From positions 1 through 64,000 of the forward strand of contig NZ_JAILGZ010000109.1 of NCBI RefSeq assembly GCF_024696245.1: a DNA stretch of 64,000 nucleotides, written 5' to 3'. This DNA is from Treponema sp. Its GTDB lineage: Bacteria; Spirochaetota; Spirochaetia; Treponematales; Treponemataceae. Under the pieces are notes generated by a model. It searched no databases, was not told the DNA's origin, and worked only from the letters and a program-made list of their open reading frames with translations. The first letter of the stretch is position 1. Every line of letters begins with the position of its first letter. This document shows, piece after piece, positions 1 to 52,210 of the stretch. The translations under genes were made by a program, and so were the position numbers.

Positions 1-36
1 GCTATGTTTGTATCCCTATAAAGTATGGAGGAAAAA

Positions 37-3000
37 ATGTTAAAAACTTTAAAAGTCATTTCTGCAGCAATTTTAACAGCTGCTATGATTTTTACTTCCT
101 GTGATACCGAGGGTGGATTTGACTATGTAGACACAAATTCAAATTCTTCACCAGAGTACTCAGTGGAAGGTCTTAGTACATCTTCTTCAGAAACATATGA
201 TTTTGTTCTGGATAAGACTAATATTATGCCTGGAGATGAAGAGGGTACTTTTACTGTTTTTGTAAAAAACTCTAAACCTGTAAAATTAATTGCCAAAAAC
301 AGCGCTTCCGGCGTAAGTATTTCTGCTGGTAAATTTACAGCAACTACATCTTCTGACTCTGTTGGAGAAGGTGCATGGAAGGCTGTAGTTTCTTATGCTG
401 TTGATTCTTCAATTACAGAAGCTGTAGATGGAGCATGTAAGTTTTATGTAATGTTCTCTGATTCTGATGTAGAAACTGTAATTCTTGACGTTAATGTAAA
501 AGCAAGCTATATGCCTGAAAGTGAAACATATAAACTTGTAGATGCAACAGAAAGTGCTTCTTCAGAACACTCATTTACTTTGACCTGGACTTATCAGTCT
601 GGAATAGAAGCTACTTCTGTAACATATGAAATTTATAAGGTTACAAGTTCTGGTGATGAATATGTTTATACTGAAGTTGAAACAGGAAGTCTTGCTGCAG
701 GTGCTGTAACTCTTACTCCAACATCAACTCTTGATGGTAAATCAAATTACTGTGTAAAGATTAAGGCTGTTGGTGCTGACGGATGGTATGAAACTACTGT
801 TGGTACATCTGACGGATGGGTAACAACAACTAATGATATAACACCTCCTGTTGCTCCTGCTGTCGTAGTAGCTTCTACTGGTGAAGATTCTGTAACCCTT
901 ACTTATACAAAGGGAAACAGCACTGATGATACAACAAACCTTACAATTGCAGTTACAACTACAGCAGATGGTATTACAGTACCTGCAATGGCAAGTGCTG
1001 TTACTGCAACTTATGGAGAAACAGCTTTAACTTATGATGTAACTGATGGTCTTGATGTTTCTTCTGTTGCTGCTGAAGGAACAGTTACTGTTGTAATCGG
1101 CAGCCTTCAGCGTGCTGAAACAGCAGTTGAATATTCTATTACAGTAACAGCTTATGACGCATGTGATAATCATACTTCTGCAACACCTCTTACAGCTTCT
1201 ACAGTTGCTGATACAACAGCACCAGTAGTAGATGCTGATGGAGTAAGTGTAAGTGCAGGTCTTTCTTCTGCAAAGATTACATGGGCAAATCCAGCTGATA
1301 ATGACTTTGCAGGAATTACACTTAAAAAAGGCGATGAAGTTGTAGAAACAGGTCTTACAGGTGGAGTTTATGCTTTGACTGGTCTTACAGAGGGTGCTAC
1401 ATATACACTCTATGCTACTGATACTCTTGGACATGTTCAGACAACTGGAACAGATGTTGTTGTAACTCTTGATACATTTGAAGCTTCTGCTGTTGTTAAC
1501 TACACAGGTTCTGTTCTTGTAACATGGAATGATGTAGTTGATTATGAAGCAGACGGAAGTAAAATTTCTTATACTTATGATGTTTCATGTACTAATGGAG
1601 TTTCTTCTATAACTGGTGTTGAAGAAGGTACAAAAAGTGCTCACTTTAAAGGTCTTGAAGTAGGTTCTGAATATACCTTTACTGCAAGCGTTATGAACGG
1701 TTCTACAACAGTTGTATCATCTACACCTGATGCTGTAACAGCTAAGACTGTAATCCTTAAGATTGGAAACGGATATAGTGCTAACGGTACAACTCCTTCA
1801 CGCTACCTTGCATGGGTATCAAGTAAATCTTCTACAACCTGTTATAACACAGGTGCTGTAGCAGATTCTGCAAATCCAACAGCAAGCTACTGGATTATCC
1901 GTCCTGCATTAAGCGGAACAGACGGTTACTTCTCTCTTGAAGCTGCTACAGGTACAACAGGAGTTGGAACTGGTTATTTCCTTTATGCAGATACAAACAG
2001 TCGCAGTTATGTTGATTATAATGGAACATGGGGTAGTGGCGACTGGTCTAATTTTGCAATGGTTGCAACAACAACAGGTGTAGAAAACGACGGTACTTCT
2101 TATATTACTGATACAAAACAGGCTTCATTCTACTGGGGTGAATCAAGCTGGAACTCTTCTTTCAGCAGATTGTATTCTGAAAGCATGTCAGGCTACTATG
2201 TATGCCATGCTTCCCTTACATTCGGTTTAACAAACTCTTCTTCTGAAGATAACGCCGGATGTGCTGCATTTATAATTGCTTCTACAGCTACAGCTAATAG
2301 TGATTATTATAATGATGTTGCTCCTGCTGCTGTTACAAATTTAACAGCTGGAACAGCTAAATCTACTAAAATTCCGCTTACATGGACAAATCCTTCAGAT
2401 CTTGACCTTAGTTTTGTAAGAATCAGTTATACAACAGGTTCTACAACAAAGACTCTTGATGTAGCTGCTGGTACTGTCTCTGCAACTCTTAGTGGACTTA
2501 CAAAGGGTACTTCTTATAGTATTACTGCCACTGCTTATGATGTGTACGGAAATGCTTCTGATGCTACTGAAGCCATAACTGTTGAAACTTCGAATCCGAC
2601 TAATATTCCTATGAATGTTGCTGCAACAGCCCGCTTTACAGGAGAAATTCTTGTAACATGGGATAGGGCATCTGATGATACTTCTTCTAACTGGCAGTAT
2701 AAAGTTGAATGTTCTGATGCGAATGTAACAGCTAAGAGCTTTATAAGTCTTACATCTTATGCAGGAACTTATGCAGATGAAGCAGATGGTGTAGCCCAGT
2801 TTACAGGTCTTACAAGTTCTACTGAATACACATTTACTGTATATGCAAGTGAAGATGGTGAAACATGGAACGCTGCTGAAGAAACTGTAAGTGCAACTGC
2901 TGCAACAATGACACATAAGATTAGGAATACATTTGCTCAGGCAAATCATGGAAGTGATCACAGTCCTTTGAATACTGCTGGAGCTGCAAATAAACTTATG

Positions 3001-3438
3001 TGTCAGTGGTCAACTGGTGGTGGTACTGCAACATGGAATATTTATCCTGCCCTTGATGGAACAATTACAGTTACCCATGATGTAACAAATAGTTCATCAG
3101 AAACAGTTTCTAAAGTTTATGATACTTTCTCTATCTATCATACATCAAAGGGATACGTTACTTTAGCTAGTAGTGCTATGACAGAAACAGCTGCAACATC
3201 ACTTGGAACTAATGTTTCATTAAGTACTTCAACATCAAGTGATGCAACAGGTGCTTCAACTTTCTTCTTTGGATATAATTCTACAGAATCTGCTTATACA
3301 CTCAGAGCTAATGTAGCATCTAAAAATTTTGCTCTTGGTTATTCAGGAACAAATAATAATGATACTGAAATCCTTTATTTTAATGATGCTACATCAGCTA
3401 CTTGTGAAAGTAATAAATATGCATGGTATTTTGATTAA
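37..3438 (+). CDS. Large secreted lipoprotein with repeated fibronectin type III-like domains
   Basis: Lipobox-like N-terminus MLKTLKVISAAILTAAMIFTSCD; repeated FN3-like segments (e.g. TDTTAPVVDADGVSVSAGLSSAKITWANPADNDFAGI). Start moved from 25 to 37 because the GGAGG Shine-Dalgarno lies at 28-32. Confidence 0.8.
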   Translation: MLKTLKVISAAILTAAMIFTSCDTEGGFDYVDTNSNSSPEYSVEGLSTSSSETYDFVLDKTNIMPGDEEGTFTVFVKNSKPVKLIAKNSASGVSISAGKFTATTSSDSVGEGAWKAVVSYAVDSSITEAVDGACKFYVMFSDSDVETVILDVNVKASYMPESETYKLVDATESASSEHSFTLTWTYQSGIEATSVTYEIYKVTSSGDEYVYTEVETGSLAAGAVTLTPTSTLDGKSNYCVKIKAVGADGWYETTVGTSDGWVTTTNDITPPVAPAVVVASTGEDSVTLTYTKGNSTDDTTNLTIAVTTTADGITVPAMASAVTATYGETALTYDVTDGLDVSSVAAEGTVTVVIGSLQRAETAVEYSITVTAYDACDNHTSATPLTASTVADTTAPVVDADGVSVSAGLSSAKITWANPADNDFAGITLKKGDEVVETGLTGGVYALTGLTEGATYTLYATDTLGHVQTTGTDVVVTLDTFEASAVVNYTGSVLVTWNDVVDYEADGSKISYTYDVSCTNGVSSITGVEEGTKSAHFKGLEVGSEYTFTASVMNGSTTVVSSTPDAVTAKTVILKIGNGYSANGTTPSRYLAWVSSKSSTTCYNTGAVADSANPTASYWIIRPALSGTDGYFSLEAATGTTGVGTGYFLYADTNSRSYVDYNGTWGSGDWSNFAMVATTTGVENDGTSYITDTKQASFYWGESSWNSSFSRLYSESMSGYYVCHASLTFGLTNSSSEDNAGCAAFIIASTATANSDYYNDVAPAAVTNLTAGTAKSTKIPLTWTNPSDLDLSFVRISYTTGSTTKTLDVAAGTVSATLSGLTKGTSYSITATAYDVYGNASDATEAITVETSNPTNIPMNVAATARFTGEILVTWDRASDDTSSNWQYKVECSDANVTAKSFISLTSYAGTYADEADGVAQFTGLTSSTEYTFTVYASEDGETWNAAEETVSATAATMTHKIRNTFAQANHGSDHSPLNTAGAANKLMCQWSTGGGTATWNIYPALDGTITVTHDVTNSSSETVSKVYDTFSIYHTSKGYVTLASSAMTETAATSLGTNVSLSTSTSSDATGASTFFFGYNSTESAYTLRANVASKNFALGYSGTNNNDTEILYFNDATSATCESNKYAWYFD

Positions 3439-3466
3439 TATCTGCAAGCTTTAGCTAAAAACAATT

Positions 3467-3502
3467 AAGGCGGTACTCTTATTAAAGGGTGCCGCCTTTT
3501 TT
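3467..3502 (+). terminator. Rho-independent terminator after the FN3 lipoprotein gene
   Basis: AAGGCGGTACTC-loop-GGGTGCCGCCTT followed by a T run. Confidence 0.85.
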
Positions 3503-3534
3503 ATTTGCTGTGCATTTATTTTTTTAAGTTACAG

Positions 3535-3640
3535 CCGGGGTGGGATTTTTATGCCAGCCCGGATTGGAATGGGTGCGGAGCACGTCTGGAGCAGGGCGGA
3601 AGACCGGCCGGTAGGGCAAGCCATGGAAAGCCGGTTATGT
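3535..3640 (+). repeat. Intergenic GGA-rich structured repeat, copy A
   Basis: AGCCCGGATTGGA (3556-3568) ... AAAGCCGGTTATG (3627-3639); the same flanking boxes recur at 50204-50274. Confidence 0.7.
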
Positions 3641-3672
3641 AATCCGCGGTGCTCCAGAGTAAAAGTCAAAGT

Positions 3673-4542
3673 CTATTTGTTGTTGAGGATTTTTACGTCG
3701 TAGTGGGTGTAAGGGATTTCTACATTGTCCTGACGGCAGATTTTAACTATGTTTGTATAGACCTGATTTTTAACTGTTATAAGGTCGGAGGTTTTAAACC
3801 ATACTGCAAGCTTAAGGTTGATTGCGTCACCAAAACCGTCGTAAAAAACTGCTGGCTCCGGGTCGGAGAGAACTGCGGGGCACTGGGCCGGAACTTTCTT
3901 AATTGTTTCAAGGACTTTGTCTACGTCGGCATCGTAGCTGATAGGGATGTCAAAGACCAGGCGGCGCTTTGTGTAGCTGTTGTAGTTTACAAGGTTGTTG
4001 TTGATTACTGTGCTGTTTGGAATGCGTACTACCTGATTGTCCAGGGTGCGGATTTTTATGCTGAGAAGGCCGATGTTGTCTACGATTCCGCTTTCGTCTC
4101 CTACTGTGATGTAGTCTCCCAGTTTAATTGTTTTTTCGCTTAAGACGAAGAGGCCGGATATAAGGTTGCTGACACTGGTCTGGGCGGCAAAACCTATGGC
4201 AAGTCCGGCTACTCCTGCTGCTCCCCATATTGCACTAAGGTTGATTCCAAAGAGTCCCAGGATGTACATGGTGATGAGTACGTAGAAGACGTAGCTTACT
4301 GTTTTGTTTAAGAGCATGGCGGTGTGGGGCTGCATGCGTTCTTTTGTTTTTTTGAGTATTACGTTTTTAATGATTCTGTAGACAACGTAAAAAATCAGGA
4401 TGGCGATTACTGCTGTGGCAACTTTTGCAAGGTTGGACCAGGTAATGTAATTTTTAAGGTCATCAAGGTGAAGGAATTTTGTTGTCTGACCTACTGTTTC
4501 TGAAACGGTGTCTGCTACACTTTCTGTTTCTTTTTCCGGCAT
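3673..4542 (-). CDS. MscS-family mechanosensitive ion channel
   Basis: Membrane N-terminus, then GVAGLAIGFAAQTSVSNLISGLFVLSEKTIKLGDYITVGDESGIV, typical of MscS; AAGGAG upstream. Confidence 0.9.
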   Translation of the reverse strand: MPEKETESVADTVSETVGQTTKFLHLDDLKNYITWSNLAKVATAVIAILIFYVVYRIIKNVILKKTKERMQPHTAMLLNKTVSYVFYVLITMYILGLFGINLSAIWGAAGVAGLAIGFAAQTSVSNLISGLFVLSEKTIKLGDYITVGDESGIVDNIGLLSIKIRTLDNQVVRIPNSTVINNNLVNYNSYTKRRLVFDIPISYDADVDKVLETIKKVPAQCPAVLSDPEPAVFYDGFGDAINLKLAVWFKTSDLITVKNQVYTNIVKICRQDNVEIPYTHYDVKILNNK

Positions 4543-49764: not shown

Positions 49765-49805
49765 TAACTAACTTTAAGATTATTTCAATGTCAGGAGGAG
49801 AAATA

Positions 49806-50135
49806 ATGAGAAAGTTAAATTATGTTCTGGGGGGCCTGCTTGGTCTTGCAGTTGCACTGGCTTTTACAGCGTGTGGTAATGATGCCGAAGCTGTAATTGG
49901 TAATTCTTACGGTACGAGTGATAAAGGACTCGTTATTGAATTCAGGGATGATAATGAAGCCTGTTATTCTTTCCTTGGACTTCCGGATAAAAGCGTGGAG
50001 TACAGGATAAAGGGTAATGAGATTTCCCTTGCAATGGAGGGAAAAGATTATCTTATGAAATATGATAAAAAAGGTGATGCCATTGAATTCCAGACTGGAG
50101 CTAGTATGGTAACACTTGTAAATATAGAAAAATAA
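49806..50135 (+). CDS. Small putative lipoprotein, hypothetical
   Basis: MRKLNYVLGGLLGLAVALAFTACGND (lipobox); strong SD. Confidence 0.75.
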   Translation: MRKLNYVLGGLLGLAVALAFTACGNDAEAVIGNSYGTSDKGLVIEFRDDNEACYSFLGLPDKSVEYRIKGNEISLAMEGKDYLMKYDKKGDAIEFQTGASMVTLVNIEK

Positions 50136-50159
50136 TTTAAAAATCGTGGAGTCTTTATT

Positions 50160-50193
50160 AGTCCGGTGCTCTTTAGGGTGCCGGGCTTTTTTT
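50160..50193 (+). terminator. Terminator after small lipoprotein
   Basis: AGTCCGGTGCTC-TTTA-GGGTGCCGGGCT + T run. Confidence 0.85.
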
Positions 50194-50203
50194 GTGTCAT
50201 ACT

Positions 50204-50274
50204 AGCCCGGATTGGAGGGGCACGGAGTGTTCCGGACCGGAGGGGAGGAATAAAACCCCGCAAAGCCGGTTATG
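50204..50274 (+). repeat. Intergenic GGA-rich structured repeat, copy B
   Basis: AGCCCGGATTGGA ... AAAGCCGGTTATG, matching copy A near 3556-3639. Confidence 0.7.
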
Positions 50275-50346
50275 AAAGGTAAGCTTTTCTTAGTGTTTTT
50301 GAGTATTGGCGTAAGTACAAGTTGCTCCAATCTTGCAGAAACTTAA

Positions 50347-50375
50347 TTGAATATCTGAGCTGAAAGTGCTACTAT
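50347..50375 (+). promoter_or_regulatory. Candidate promoter for alaS
   Basis: TTGAAT-N17-TACTAT, -10 ending 8 nt before the ATG at 50384. Confidence 0.55.
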
Positions 50376-50383
50376 CTTCTATT

Positions 50384-52210
50384 ATGACTGCAAATGAATT
50401 ACGCTCAAAATACATTGAGTTCTTTAAATCTAAAAATCATGCTGTTATTTCCGGACAGAGTTTAATTCCGGAGAATGATCCTTCTGTTTTATTTACAACT
50501 GCGGGAATGCACCCACTTGTTCCTTATTTACTGGGAGAAAAGCATCCTGCGGGAACCCGTCTTACTGACTATCAGAAATGTGTCCGCACTGGTGATATAG
50601 ATGAAGTTGGAGATCCTTCCCACCTTACTTGTTTTGAGATGCTTGGTAACTGGTCTCTTGGTGATTATTTTAAGAAGGAATCTATTTCTTTTTCTTATGA
50701 ATTCCTTACAAGTAAAGACTGGCTTGGCCTTGATCCACGTAAGATTTCTGTAACTGTTTTTGCCGGTGATGAAAATGCTCCTCGTGATGAAGAAGCTGCT
50801 TCTGTATGGAAGTCAGTGGGAATGCCTGAGGATAAGATTGCATATCTTCCTGCAAGTGATAACTGGTGGGCTGCCGGTCCTACAGGTCCTTGTGGTCCTG
50901 ATACAGAAATTTTTTACTGGGTTGGTGAAGGTCTGCCTCCTGAAGGTTCAAACAAGGGTACTGATTCTGCAAACTGGATGGAAATCTGGAATAACGTATT
51001 CATGCAGTTTAACCGCGTTGATGAAAAGACTCTTGAACCTCTTCCAAAGAAAAATGTAGATACCGGAATGGGTCTTGAACGTACTAACTGTATTCTTCAG
51101 GGAAAGACTTCGGTTTATCTTACAGAAGTGTTCCAGCCTATTATTGCAAAGATTGGTGAACTTGCCGGTGGTTACGTTTATGGTACAGATGCAGAAAAAG
51201 ACAAGAGTGTCCGCATTATTGCCGACCATAGCCGTGCTTCAGTATTTATTCTTGGTGACCAGAAGGGTGTAAGTCCAGACAGAGTTGGAGCTGGTTATGT
51301 TCTCCGCCGTCTTATCCGTCGTGCAGTACGTCATGGAATGAAGCTGGGTATTGAAAAGGCTTTCCTTGCAGAAGTTGCCCAGGTTGTAGTTGATAACTTT
51401 AAGAATGCTTATCCTGAACTTGATCAGAATTCAGTTAAGGTTTACAAGGAACTTACTGCAGAAGAAGAAAAGTTCCGTCTTACACTTAAGAAGGGTGAAG
51501 CAGAATTCCAGAAACTTCTTCCTAACCTTATGAAGAATCCTAAAAAGATTATCAGTGGTAAGGTTGCTTATAATCTTTACGAAACATATGGTTTCCCTCT
51601 TGAACTTACTCAGGAACTTGGTGCAGAAAACGGCTTTACTGTAGATGTTGAAGGTTTCCGTGAAGCAGAAAAGAAACATCAGGAAGCAAGTAAAACTGCC
51701 GAAGCAGGAAAGGCAAAGGGTGGTATTGCTGAACAGTCTGATGCTGCTACAAAGTATCACACTGCAACACATCTTCTTCAGCAGGCTCTTGTAAATGTTC
51801 TTGGTGATCAGGTTGCTCAGAAGGGTTCCAATATTAACAGTGAACGCATGAGATTTGACTTTACTTTTGAACGTCCTATGACTAAGGAAGAGATTCAGAA
51901 GGTAGAAGATATTGTAAACGAAAAGATTAAGGAAGATCTTCCTGTAACTATGGAAGTAATGGCTCTGGATGCTGCAAAAGCTGCTGGTGCCCGTGCTTTG
52001 TTTACAAATAAATATGGTGAAGACGTAAAAGTTTATACAATCGGCCGTGATCCTGTAAATGACTGGTTCAGTAAGGAAGTATGTGGTGGACCTCATGTTC
52101 AGCATACAGCTCAGATTGGTGAATTTAAGATTCAGAAGGAGCAGTCATCTTCTGCAGGTGTCCGCCGTATTCGTGCTGTTATTTCAGGTGGTCTTCCGCT
52201 TGATAAATAG
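50384..52210 (+). CDS. alaS: Alanyl-tRNA synthetase, short form
   Basis: MTANELRSKYIEFFKSKNHAVISGQSLIPENDPSVLFTTAGMHPLVPYL; editing motifs HTATHLL and CGGPHVQHT; ends right after the editing domain. Confidence 0.95.
   Translation: MTANELRSKYIEFFKSKNHAVISGQSLIPENDPSVLFTTAGMHPLVPYLLGEKHPAGTRLTDYQKCVRTGDIDEVGDPSHLTCFEMLGNWSLGDYFKKESISFSYEFLTSKDWLGLDPRKISVTVFAGDENAPRDEEAASVWKSVGMPEDKIAYLPASDNWWAAGPTGPCGPDTEIFYWVGEGLPPEGSNKGTDSANWMEIWNNVFMQFNRVDEKTLEPLPKKNVDTGMGLERTNCILQGKTSVYLTEVFQPIIAKIGELAGGYVYGTDAEKDKSVRIIADHSRASVFILGDQKGVSPDRVGAGYVLRRLIRRAVRHGMKLGIEKAFLAEVAQVVVDNFKNAYPELDQNSVKVYKELTAEEEKFRLTLKKGEAEFQKLLPNLMKNPKKIISGKVAYNLYETYGFPLELTQELGAENGFTVDVEGFREAEKKHQEASKTAEAGKAKGGIAEQSDAATKYHTATHLLQQALVNVLGDQVAQKGSNINSERMRFDFTFERPMTKEEIQKVEDIVNEKIKEDLPVTMEVMALDAAKAAGARALFTNKYGEDVKVYTIGRDPVNDWFSKEVCGGPHVQHTAQIGEFKIQKEQSSSAGVRRIRAVISGGLPLDK

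Follow-up and report, generated by a model that had tools for sequence, protein, structure and literature searches.

Two intergenic elements in the window, the 64,000-nucleotide stretch of Treponema DNA analysed here, share a covarying fold that, by sequence, appears to place them in a divergent branch of the Flavo-1 family (Rfam RF01705), and the unpaired triplet at the 5' foot of this fold is complementary to a short box on its 3' side. The favoured reading, held at about even odds and preferred over a small RNA (sRNA), is a REP-like element that acts as folded single-stranded DNA with a pairing of foot and box like that of a guide and a cleavage site. The computed evidence comprises the fold, the covariation of foot and box, dispersal in tens of copies, intergenic placement independent of the gene strand, and retention at orthologous loci.

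The genome from which the window comes is 2.66 Mb in size and 98.98% complete. The initial annotation described a GGA-rich element present twice in the window, with two end boxes shared by the copies and two hairpins between them. Both boxes are exact and occur solely at these two sites; the first box alone with up to three mismatches is found at chance level in the window, and the exact pair of boxes about 60-70 nt apart is not a chance occurrence. The count of two holds within the window, and a covariance model identifies 12 copies in the genome. The hairpins are found as described (P3 and P4 in Table 1), the second with 13-nt GGA-NN-NNN-NN-GGA loops. The description lacked the outer stem P1 (CCGG/CCGG), the conserved 6 x 6 internal loop, the stem P2 and the downstream box, the last lying in both copies beyond the interval first annotated. 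Terminators at ~3466-3503 and ~50155-50193 end the upstream genes and precede copies A and B, respectively. The element itself was rejected as an intrinsic terminator, there being no U-run 3' of its stem, and an integron attC site was dropped on inspection as no R'/R'' core sites are present.

Table 1. Positions in the window of the parts of copies A and B and of the neighbouring open reading frames
Feature	Positions	Strand	Basis
Copy A, foot triplet AGC (putative guide), directly 5' of P1	3556-3558	+	Covaries with downstream box, 246 copies
Copy A, P1 5' strand CCGG, pairs with 3631-3634	3559-3562	+	Covariation, GC/CG/UA/AU at columns 10-39 and CG/GC at 9-40
Copy A, internal loop 5' strand ATTGGA, near-invariant, opposite GGAAAG 3625-3630	3563-3568	+	Invariant alignment columns; same loop in Rfam Flavo-1
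Copy A, P2 5' strand ATGG, pairs with CCAT 3621-3624	3569-3572	+	Both-side changes in 4/4 P2 pairs
Copy A, hairpin P3 GTGC-GGA-GCAC (C-GNA-G triloop), first annotated as stem 1	3573-3583	+	Direct reading; triloop excess in Treponema set
Copy A, hairpin P4 GTCT-[GGAGCAGGGCGGA]-AGAC, first annotated as stem 2	3584-3604	+	Recurs with compensatory changes in other copies of the same genome
Copy A, core 3' half: P2 3' strand CCAT, loop GGAAAG, P1 3' strand CCGG	3621-3634	+	Alignment, covariation
Copy A, downstream box GCTCC, complementary to foot AGC, 16 nt from core	3651-3655	+	Foot/box rule
Copy B, foot triplet AGC	50204-50206	+	Foot/box rule
Copy B, P1 5' strand CCGG, loop ATTGGA, P2 5' strand GGGG	50207-50220	+	Reading, Flavo-1 alignment
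Copy B, hairpin P3 GCAC-GGA-GTGT, first annotated as stem 1	50220-50230	+	Direct reading
Copy B, hairpin P4 TTCC-[GGACCGGAGGGGA]-GGAA, first annotated as stem 2; base 50230 shared with P3	50230-50250	+	Reading
Copy B, P2 3' strand CCCC, loop GCAAAG, P1 3' strand CCGG	50256-50269	+	Reading, Flavo-1 alignment
Copy B, downstream box GCTCC, 54 nt from core	50324-50328	+	Foot/box rule
Copy A left neighbour, large lipoprotein-like ORF	25-3438	+	Name read from translation
Copy A right neighbour, MscS-like ORF	3673-4542	-	Name read from translation
Copy B left neighbour, small ORF	49788-50135	+	
Copy B right neighbour, alaS-like ORF	50366-52210	+	Name read from translation

A covariance model trained on members of the family recovers copy B (50198-50277) with 64.1 bits (E = 2e-20) and copy A (3550-3642) with 58.5 bits (E = 2e-18), E-values that are inflated because both window copies are among the 27 training sequences; the third-best match in the window scores 13 bits. 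The alignment of these 27 Treponema copies shows a common core composed of P1, a near-invariant AUUGNA opposite GGAAAG, and P2, with a variable middle. P1 occurs as CCGG/CCGG (the window form), CCCG/CGGG, CGGG/CCCG, CCAG/CTGG and CCTG/CAGG, and P2 as ATGG/CCAT, GGGG/CCCC, ACCC/GGGT, AGGG/CCCT and others. Both stems are recovered unaided by RNAalifold. Paired bases fill 88% of the pair cells, and both-side changes number 43 compared with 11.3 in shuffled and 3-10 in slid controls. In the clade of the host genome, stem 2 appears as GTCT/AGAC, GTCC/GGAC, TTCC/GGAA, TTTT/AAAA and TTCT/AGAA, in all cases with the 13-nt GGA-NN-NNN-NN-GGA loop. A further outer stem, P0, formed between the upstream flank and the spacer from core to box, looks convincing in a few copies (8 bp) and was rejected as a general feature: the own-pair mean of 4.56 (4.31 when flanks are swapped) does not leave the range obtained by permutation. 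Folding favours the + strand over the - strand in 30 of 33 and 16 of 20 non-redundant copies, and the likely working form is therefore a single strand of this polarity. Selection on the folded structure, the first part of the annotation's proposal of selection on RNA structure, is well supported by the covariation, by the RNAalifold result and by a compensatory P2 change at an orthologous locus that is described below.

At the curated Rfam threshold only two tRNAs are found in the window. The gathering cut-off of Flavo-1 is 42 bits, and matches below it are seen with a permissive threshold: copy B is aligned over the full model (1-76) with 25.3 bits and an E-value of 0.0014 on 181 bp, which supports it independently of the covariance model built here, and another copy in the same genome scores 22.9 bits. 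The best match in the same genus reaches 38.8 bits (in G032, a genome with ten copies), and one copy from the same order exceeds the cut-off with 44.4 bits. The Flavo-1 consensus core ccGAUuGaAGc...gCGgAaAGCgg comprises P1, the 6 x 6 loop and P2, and its invariant columns are the same in the 27 Treponema copies. A scan of 85,462 species genomes with the canonical pattern CCCGATTGNAGC...GCGGAAAGCGGG gives, among the matches listed, Bacteroidota (mostly Flavobacteriia) and Treponema, so that canonical copies are present in Treponema, Flavobacteriia and other Bacteroidota. Judged on these alignments, the window copies are classed as a divergent branch of the Flavo-1 family described by Weinberg et al. 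(2010, PMC2864571), with which they share P1, the AUUGNA/GGAAAG internal loop and P2, and full-length sub-threshold matches fall at the exact sites; as they score below the level for Rfam membership they are named Flavo-1-like. They differ from the family in having the middle replaced by C-GNA-G hairpins, and the 76-nt model includes neither the foot/box pair nor the downstream box. The remark in the initial annotation that the rest of the window does not explain the element is correct for the window, and an orphan family already described does explain it. No function is given for Flavo-1 in the literature found that names it, and no description of the foot/box pairing was found in the literature. 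The foot/box structural rule, which is valid for the known Flavo-1 family too, and the Treponema branch of that family are new here.

A GCTCC or GCTTC box is located within 77 nt downstream in 70 of the 76 copies from Bacteroidota and 35 of the 46 from Treponema, against about 3 expected, and is hardly ever upstream. The box follows a rule in which the triplet at the 5' foot of P1 is complementary to the downstream box (complement + YC), obeyed by 228 of 246 copies across two phyla. Most feet are AGC (221/246), and GCTYC follows 206 of these 221. Other feet are accompanied by other boxes, with ACG followed by CGTYC (6/6), ACC by GGTYC (5/6), AAC by GTTYC (2/2), and AAA by TTTYC (8/9) and never by GCTYC (0/9). 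Since AT-rich flanks hold TTTYC by chance (83/221 AGC copies), the TTTYC match alone is weak evidence, and the strength of the AAA case lies in the loss of GCTYC. Taken together, 22 of the 25 non-AGC feet match their own complement compared with a mean of 4.8 for permuted feet. Several exceptions fit a longer or shifted pairing, such as GCGGC with GCCGCCC (L249) and CACC with GGTGCC (L335). The spacing between core and box ranges from 4 to 90 nt, with classes near 5 and 31 nt in Bacteroidota and 16 and 56 nt in Treponema. In most Tenacibaculum repeat alignments the first base is the T of TAGC or lies no more than a few bases from it, and the last falls in the A-rich tract that directly follows the box; foot and box therefore look like the ends of the repeated unit.

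Variant architectures are also present. Order-level Spirochaetota relatives (L104, L105, L107, L108, L112) are GC-rich with a quasi-symmetric double internal loop (GGGATTGNAGCGGAAA...ATTGGAGCGGAAAGCCC), and in several of them the foot seems lengthened to GCGCC, with a matching GGCGC and then CCTCC downstream, which suggests an extended guide. In three genomes (G110, G140, G081) there are longer composite elements (L116, L118, L354-L358, L360, L362, L369, L370, L373, L377, L381) in which more than 100 conserved nt, ending ...GACGCGCCCTCC(T)TGGCGCTGCTTG, come after the core, the box being missing or further downstream.

A covariance-model search across the genus gives matches in 100 of 118 sampled Treponema genomes, ranging from 0 to about 95 each: a capped scoring gives up to at least 38 per genome, and full scoring of one genome (G018) gives 95. 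Among 149 sampled Spirochaetota genomes matches are confined to Treponema and two other genera. The Tenacibaculum genomes contain many copies with at least 90% identity. Searches of plasmids with copy A, and of plasmids and phages with a Tenacibaculum copy, return no match. Copies are intergenic and have no gene-strand preference: in Bacteroidota 21 are antisense tandem, 16 sense tandem, 16 convergent and 10 divergent, and in Treponema 8 are sense, 2 antisense, 6 convergent and 9 divergent, with 6 more flagged inside ORFs that were called by a simple script and are mostly short.

Individual sites are retained between species. The counterpart of copy A in a second Treponema genome (G001) adjoins the same MscS-like gene with a nearly identical core and the box kept, the upstream flank being unalignable and the spacer diverged. 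At a parA-like locus compared between G000 and G001, a compensatory change in P2 converts G-C to U-A between species. In two Treponema species (L120/L123) an element lies a short distance upstream of a parA-like gene, next to a promoter-like region that is highly conserved and contains an inverted repeat (TGTGAAACA...TGTTTCACA). In Tenacibaculum one site is kept in six species with a P2 that has changed and still pairs, and three close genomes keep the element in 40 of 41 syntenic comparisons. Two sites occupied in three species lack the element in three others that are more distant. The Tenacibaculum comparisons reveal neither a clean empty site nor a recent insertion, the intergenic DNA of distant species being too diverged and near relatives keeping 40/41, and active mobility is therefore unproven. 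One orthologous site in Tenacibaculum has an unchanged core in L275 (10517-10593), L273 (9999-10068) and L274 (10433-10501), but L275 carries a different version of the inner hairpin and of the bases that follow the box, which suggests conversion between copies. A second dispersed Tenacibaculum repeat of ~165 bp (L188, 4820-4990, and many other sites) is sometimes directly beside a Flavo-1 copy.

Two alternative explanations assign the fold no role. Dispersed, intergenic and gene-strand-neutral copies kept at orthologous loci are consistent with a double-stranded DNA site for protein binding or chromosome organisation (BIME-like), read by dimers and folding only incidentally, but the strand asymmetry of folding, the invariant mismatched internal loop and the complementarity at variable spacing are all unexpected for such a site, making it a distinctly improbable explanation. 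A decayed MITE of an ordinary DD(E/D) transposon, in which the pairing is a functionless relic of terminal inverted repeats, would give complementary ends, many copies and a patchy distribution; compensatory changes at orthologous loci despite diverging flanks, a core that is constant while the hairpin varies, and the lack of any target duplication or empty site at the compared Tenacibaculum sites render it very unlikely.

The second part of the initial proposal, that RNA is the acting form, is not established. A multicopy structured RNA, either an sRNA or carried on mRNA, whose closing helix would be formed by foot and box and whose purine loop would be recognised by a bound protein, is a somewhat unlikely alternative. 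Strong pair covariation, better folding of the + strand with RNA parameters and the Rfam type ("Gene; sRNA", at variance with the DNA reading here) are in its favour, and a closing RNA helix would show the same box pairing. Against it, copies have no gene-strand preference, their number varies from 0 to about 95 within one genus, and the box is placed up to 90 nt off. In Flavobacterium psychrophilum, Flavo-1 matches are in sense and antisense, often outside transcribed regions (PMC9723704), which like the indifference to gene strand fits DNA. G-U is nearly absent from P1/P2 (3 G-U and 2 A-C against 367 Watson-Crick pairs in 67 Treponema copies) compared with 28 G-U to 281 in T-loop-anchored tRNA stems from the same loci (p = 2e-7), whereas a G-U fold-energy test leans towards RNA of the + strand in Treponema (p = 0.035) with no preference in Bacteroidota, both p-values being indicative only because the copies are related.

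The hairpin loops are of a DNA type. C-GNA-G triloops close 63 of 183 Treponema hairpins compared with 0.5 in shuffles, and the middle base is free (GCA 21, GAA 16, GGA 13, GTA 13); the triloops are restricted to Treponema copies, the Bacteroidota set having none. GNA and GNRA loops are acceptable in RNA too. Extraordinarily stable DNA mini-hairpins have a GNA or GNNA loop and at least two G-C pairs (PMC4686876), and the GGA loops of the initial annotation read as instances of this C-GNA-G mini-hairpin rule. The many GGA motifs, with GGA loops in both window copies, could also indicate a CsrB-like RNA that sequesters CsrA/RsmA. GGA is not the conserved feature because the middle base of the triloop is free, which departs from the conserved GGA of CsrB/RsmX-type RNAs, and Flavobacteriia are not known to use CsrA; this explanation is barely credible.

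As a REP-like single-stranded DNA element, the + strand would fold into P1, the purine internal loop and P2, topped by C-GNA-G mini-hairpins, and its unpaired 5' foot triplet would pair with a complementary box that lies 3' of the hairpin and is followed by YC. Foot and box would then correspond to guide and cleavage site, as at IS200/IS605 ends and in REP elements. These systems offer the nearest mechanistic precedent: pairing with the 5' foot of the hairpin determines where cleavage occurs (PMC5934647, PMC8266576, PMC6006769). A trans-acting single-strand nuclease or transposase, present or past, may have recognised the hairpin together with foot and box and spread the element, after which copies would stay put with their structure maintained. 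Two points are inferred: the element works as DNA and not as RNA, and an enzyme would cut at the box. No Y1 transposase (PF01797) is detected at E <= 1e-5 in the host genome with its 12 copies or in G032 with at least 10, and where one is present elsewhere it is not consistently adjacent to copies; a partnership with RAYT/IS200 was rejected on these grounds. One genome of the same order (G056) has 27 Y1 transposase matches, an expansion unrelated to the element. The enzyme may be a member of another family or may have been lost while its copies persisted; alternatively, the pairing would close a fold of RNA.

Like the REP elements of TnpAREP/RAYT systems (REPtrons), the copies are short, intergenic and high in number, with a strand-specific imperfect, mismatched hairpin and an unpaired tetranucleotide at its 5' foot, and in the REP system of Marinomonas the cleavage dinucleotide is specified by its complementarity to the foot (PMC8266576). 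In contrast to REPtrons, the foot is TAGC or CAGC (also TACG, TACC, TAAC and TAAA) rather than GTAG or any GT[AG]G, the hairpin is larger, and no tnpAREP gene flanked by copies was found. For RAYT subclass 2.6 of Bacteroidetes, flanking "atypical secondary structures" have been described (PMC6006769). With IS200/IS605 elements (IS608) the copies share a guide-like position 5' of the hairpin foot, the guide there pairing with the cleavage site at the end (PMC5934647), but they have one hairpin end only, without tnpA/tnpB between two ends, are ~80-150 nt long without an ORF, and use a plain antiparallel complement of three bases + YC. CGTC-tagged REPs (PMC3733652) are likewise reported from Bacteroidetes, Spirochaetes and other phyla and are unlinked to transposase genes; they differ in having 8-9 bp stems with 4-5 nt loops and no AUUGNA/GGAAAG core, and CGTCC is just one box type here.

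It is possible, as a tentative extension to the whole family, that Flavo-1 is not an sRNA and instead represents a REP-like single-stranded DNA element in Bacteroidota and Treponema, with a self-specified, reprogrammable site set by foot-box pairing at variable distance and a nuclease that would not be RAYT/IS200. Flavo-1 has been listed since 2010 as a widespread, functionless orphan RNA, and the foot/box covariation and DNA-type loops supply a testable mechanism. A family typed as "sRNA" may be a mobile-type DNA repeat and, if an enzyme reads the foot and box, it would be a further case of base-pairing target choice outside RNA-guided systems.
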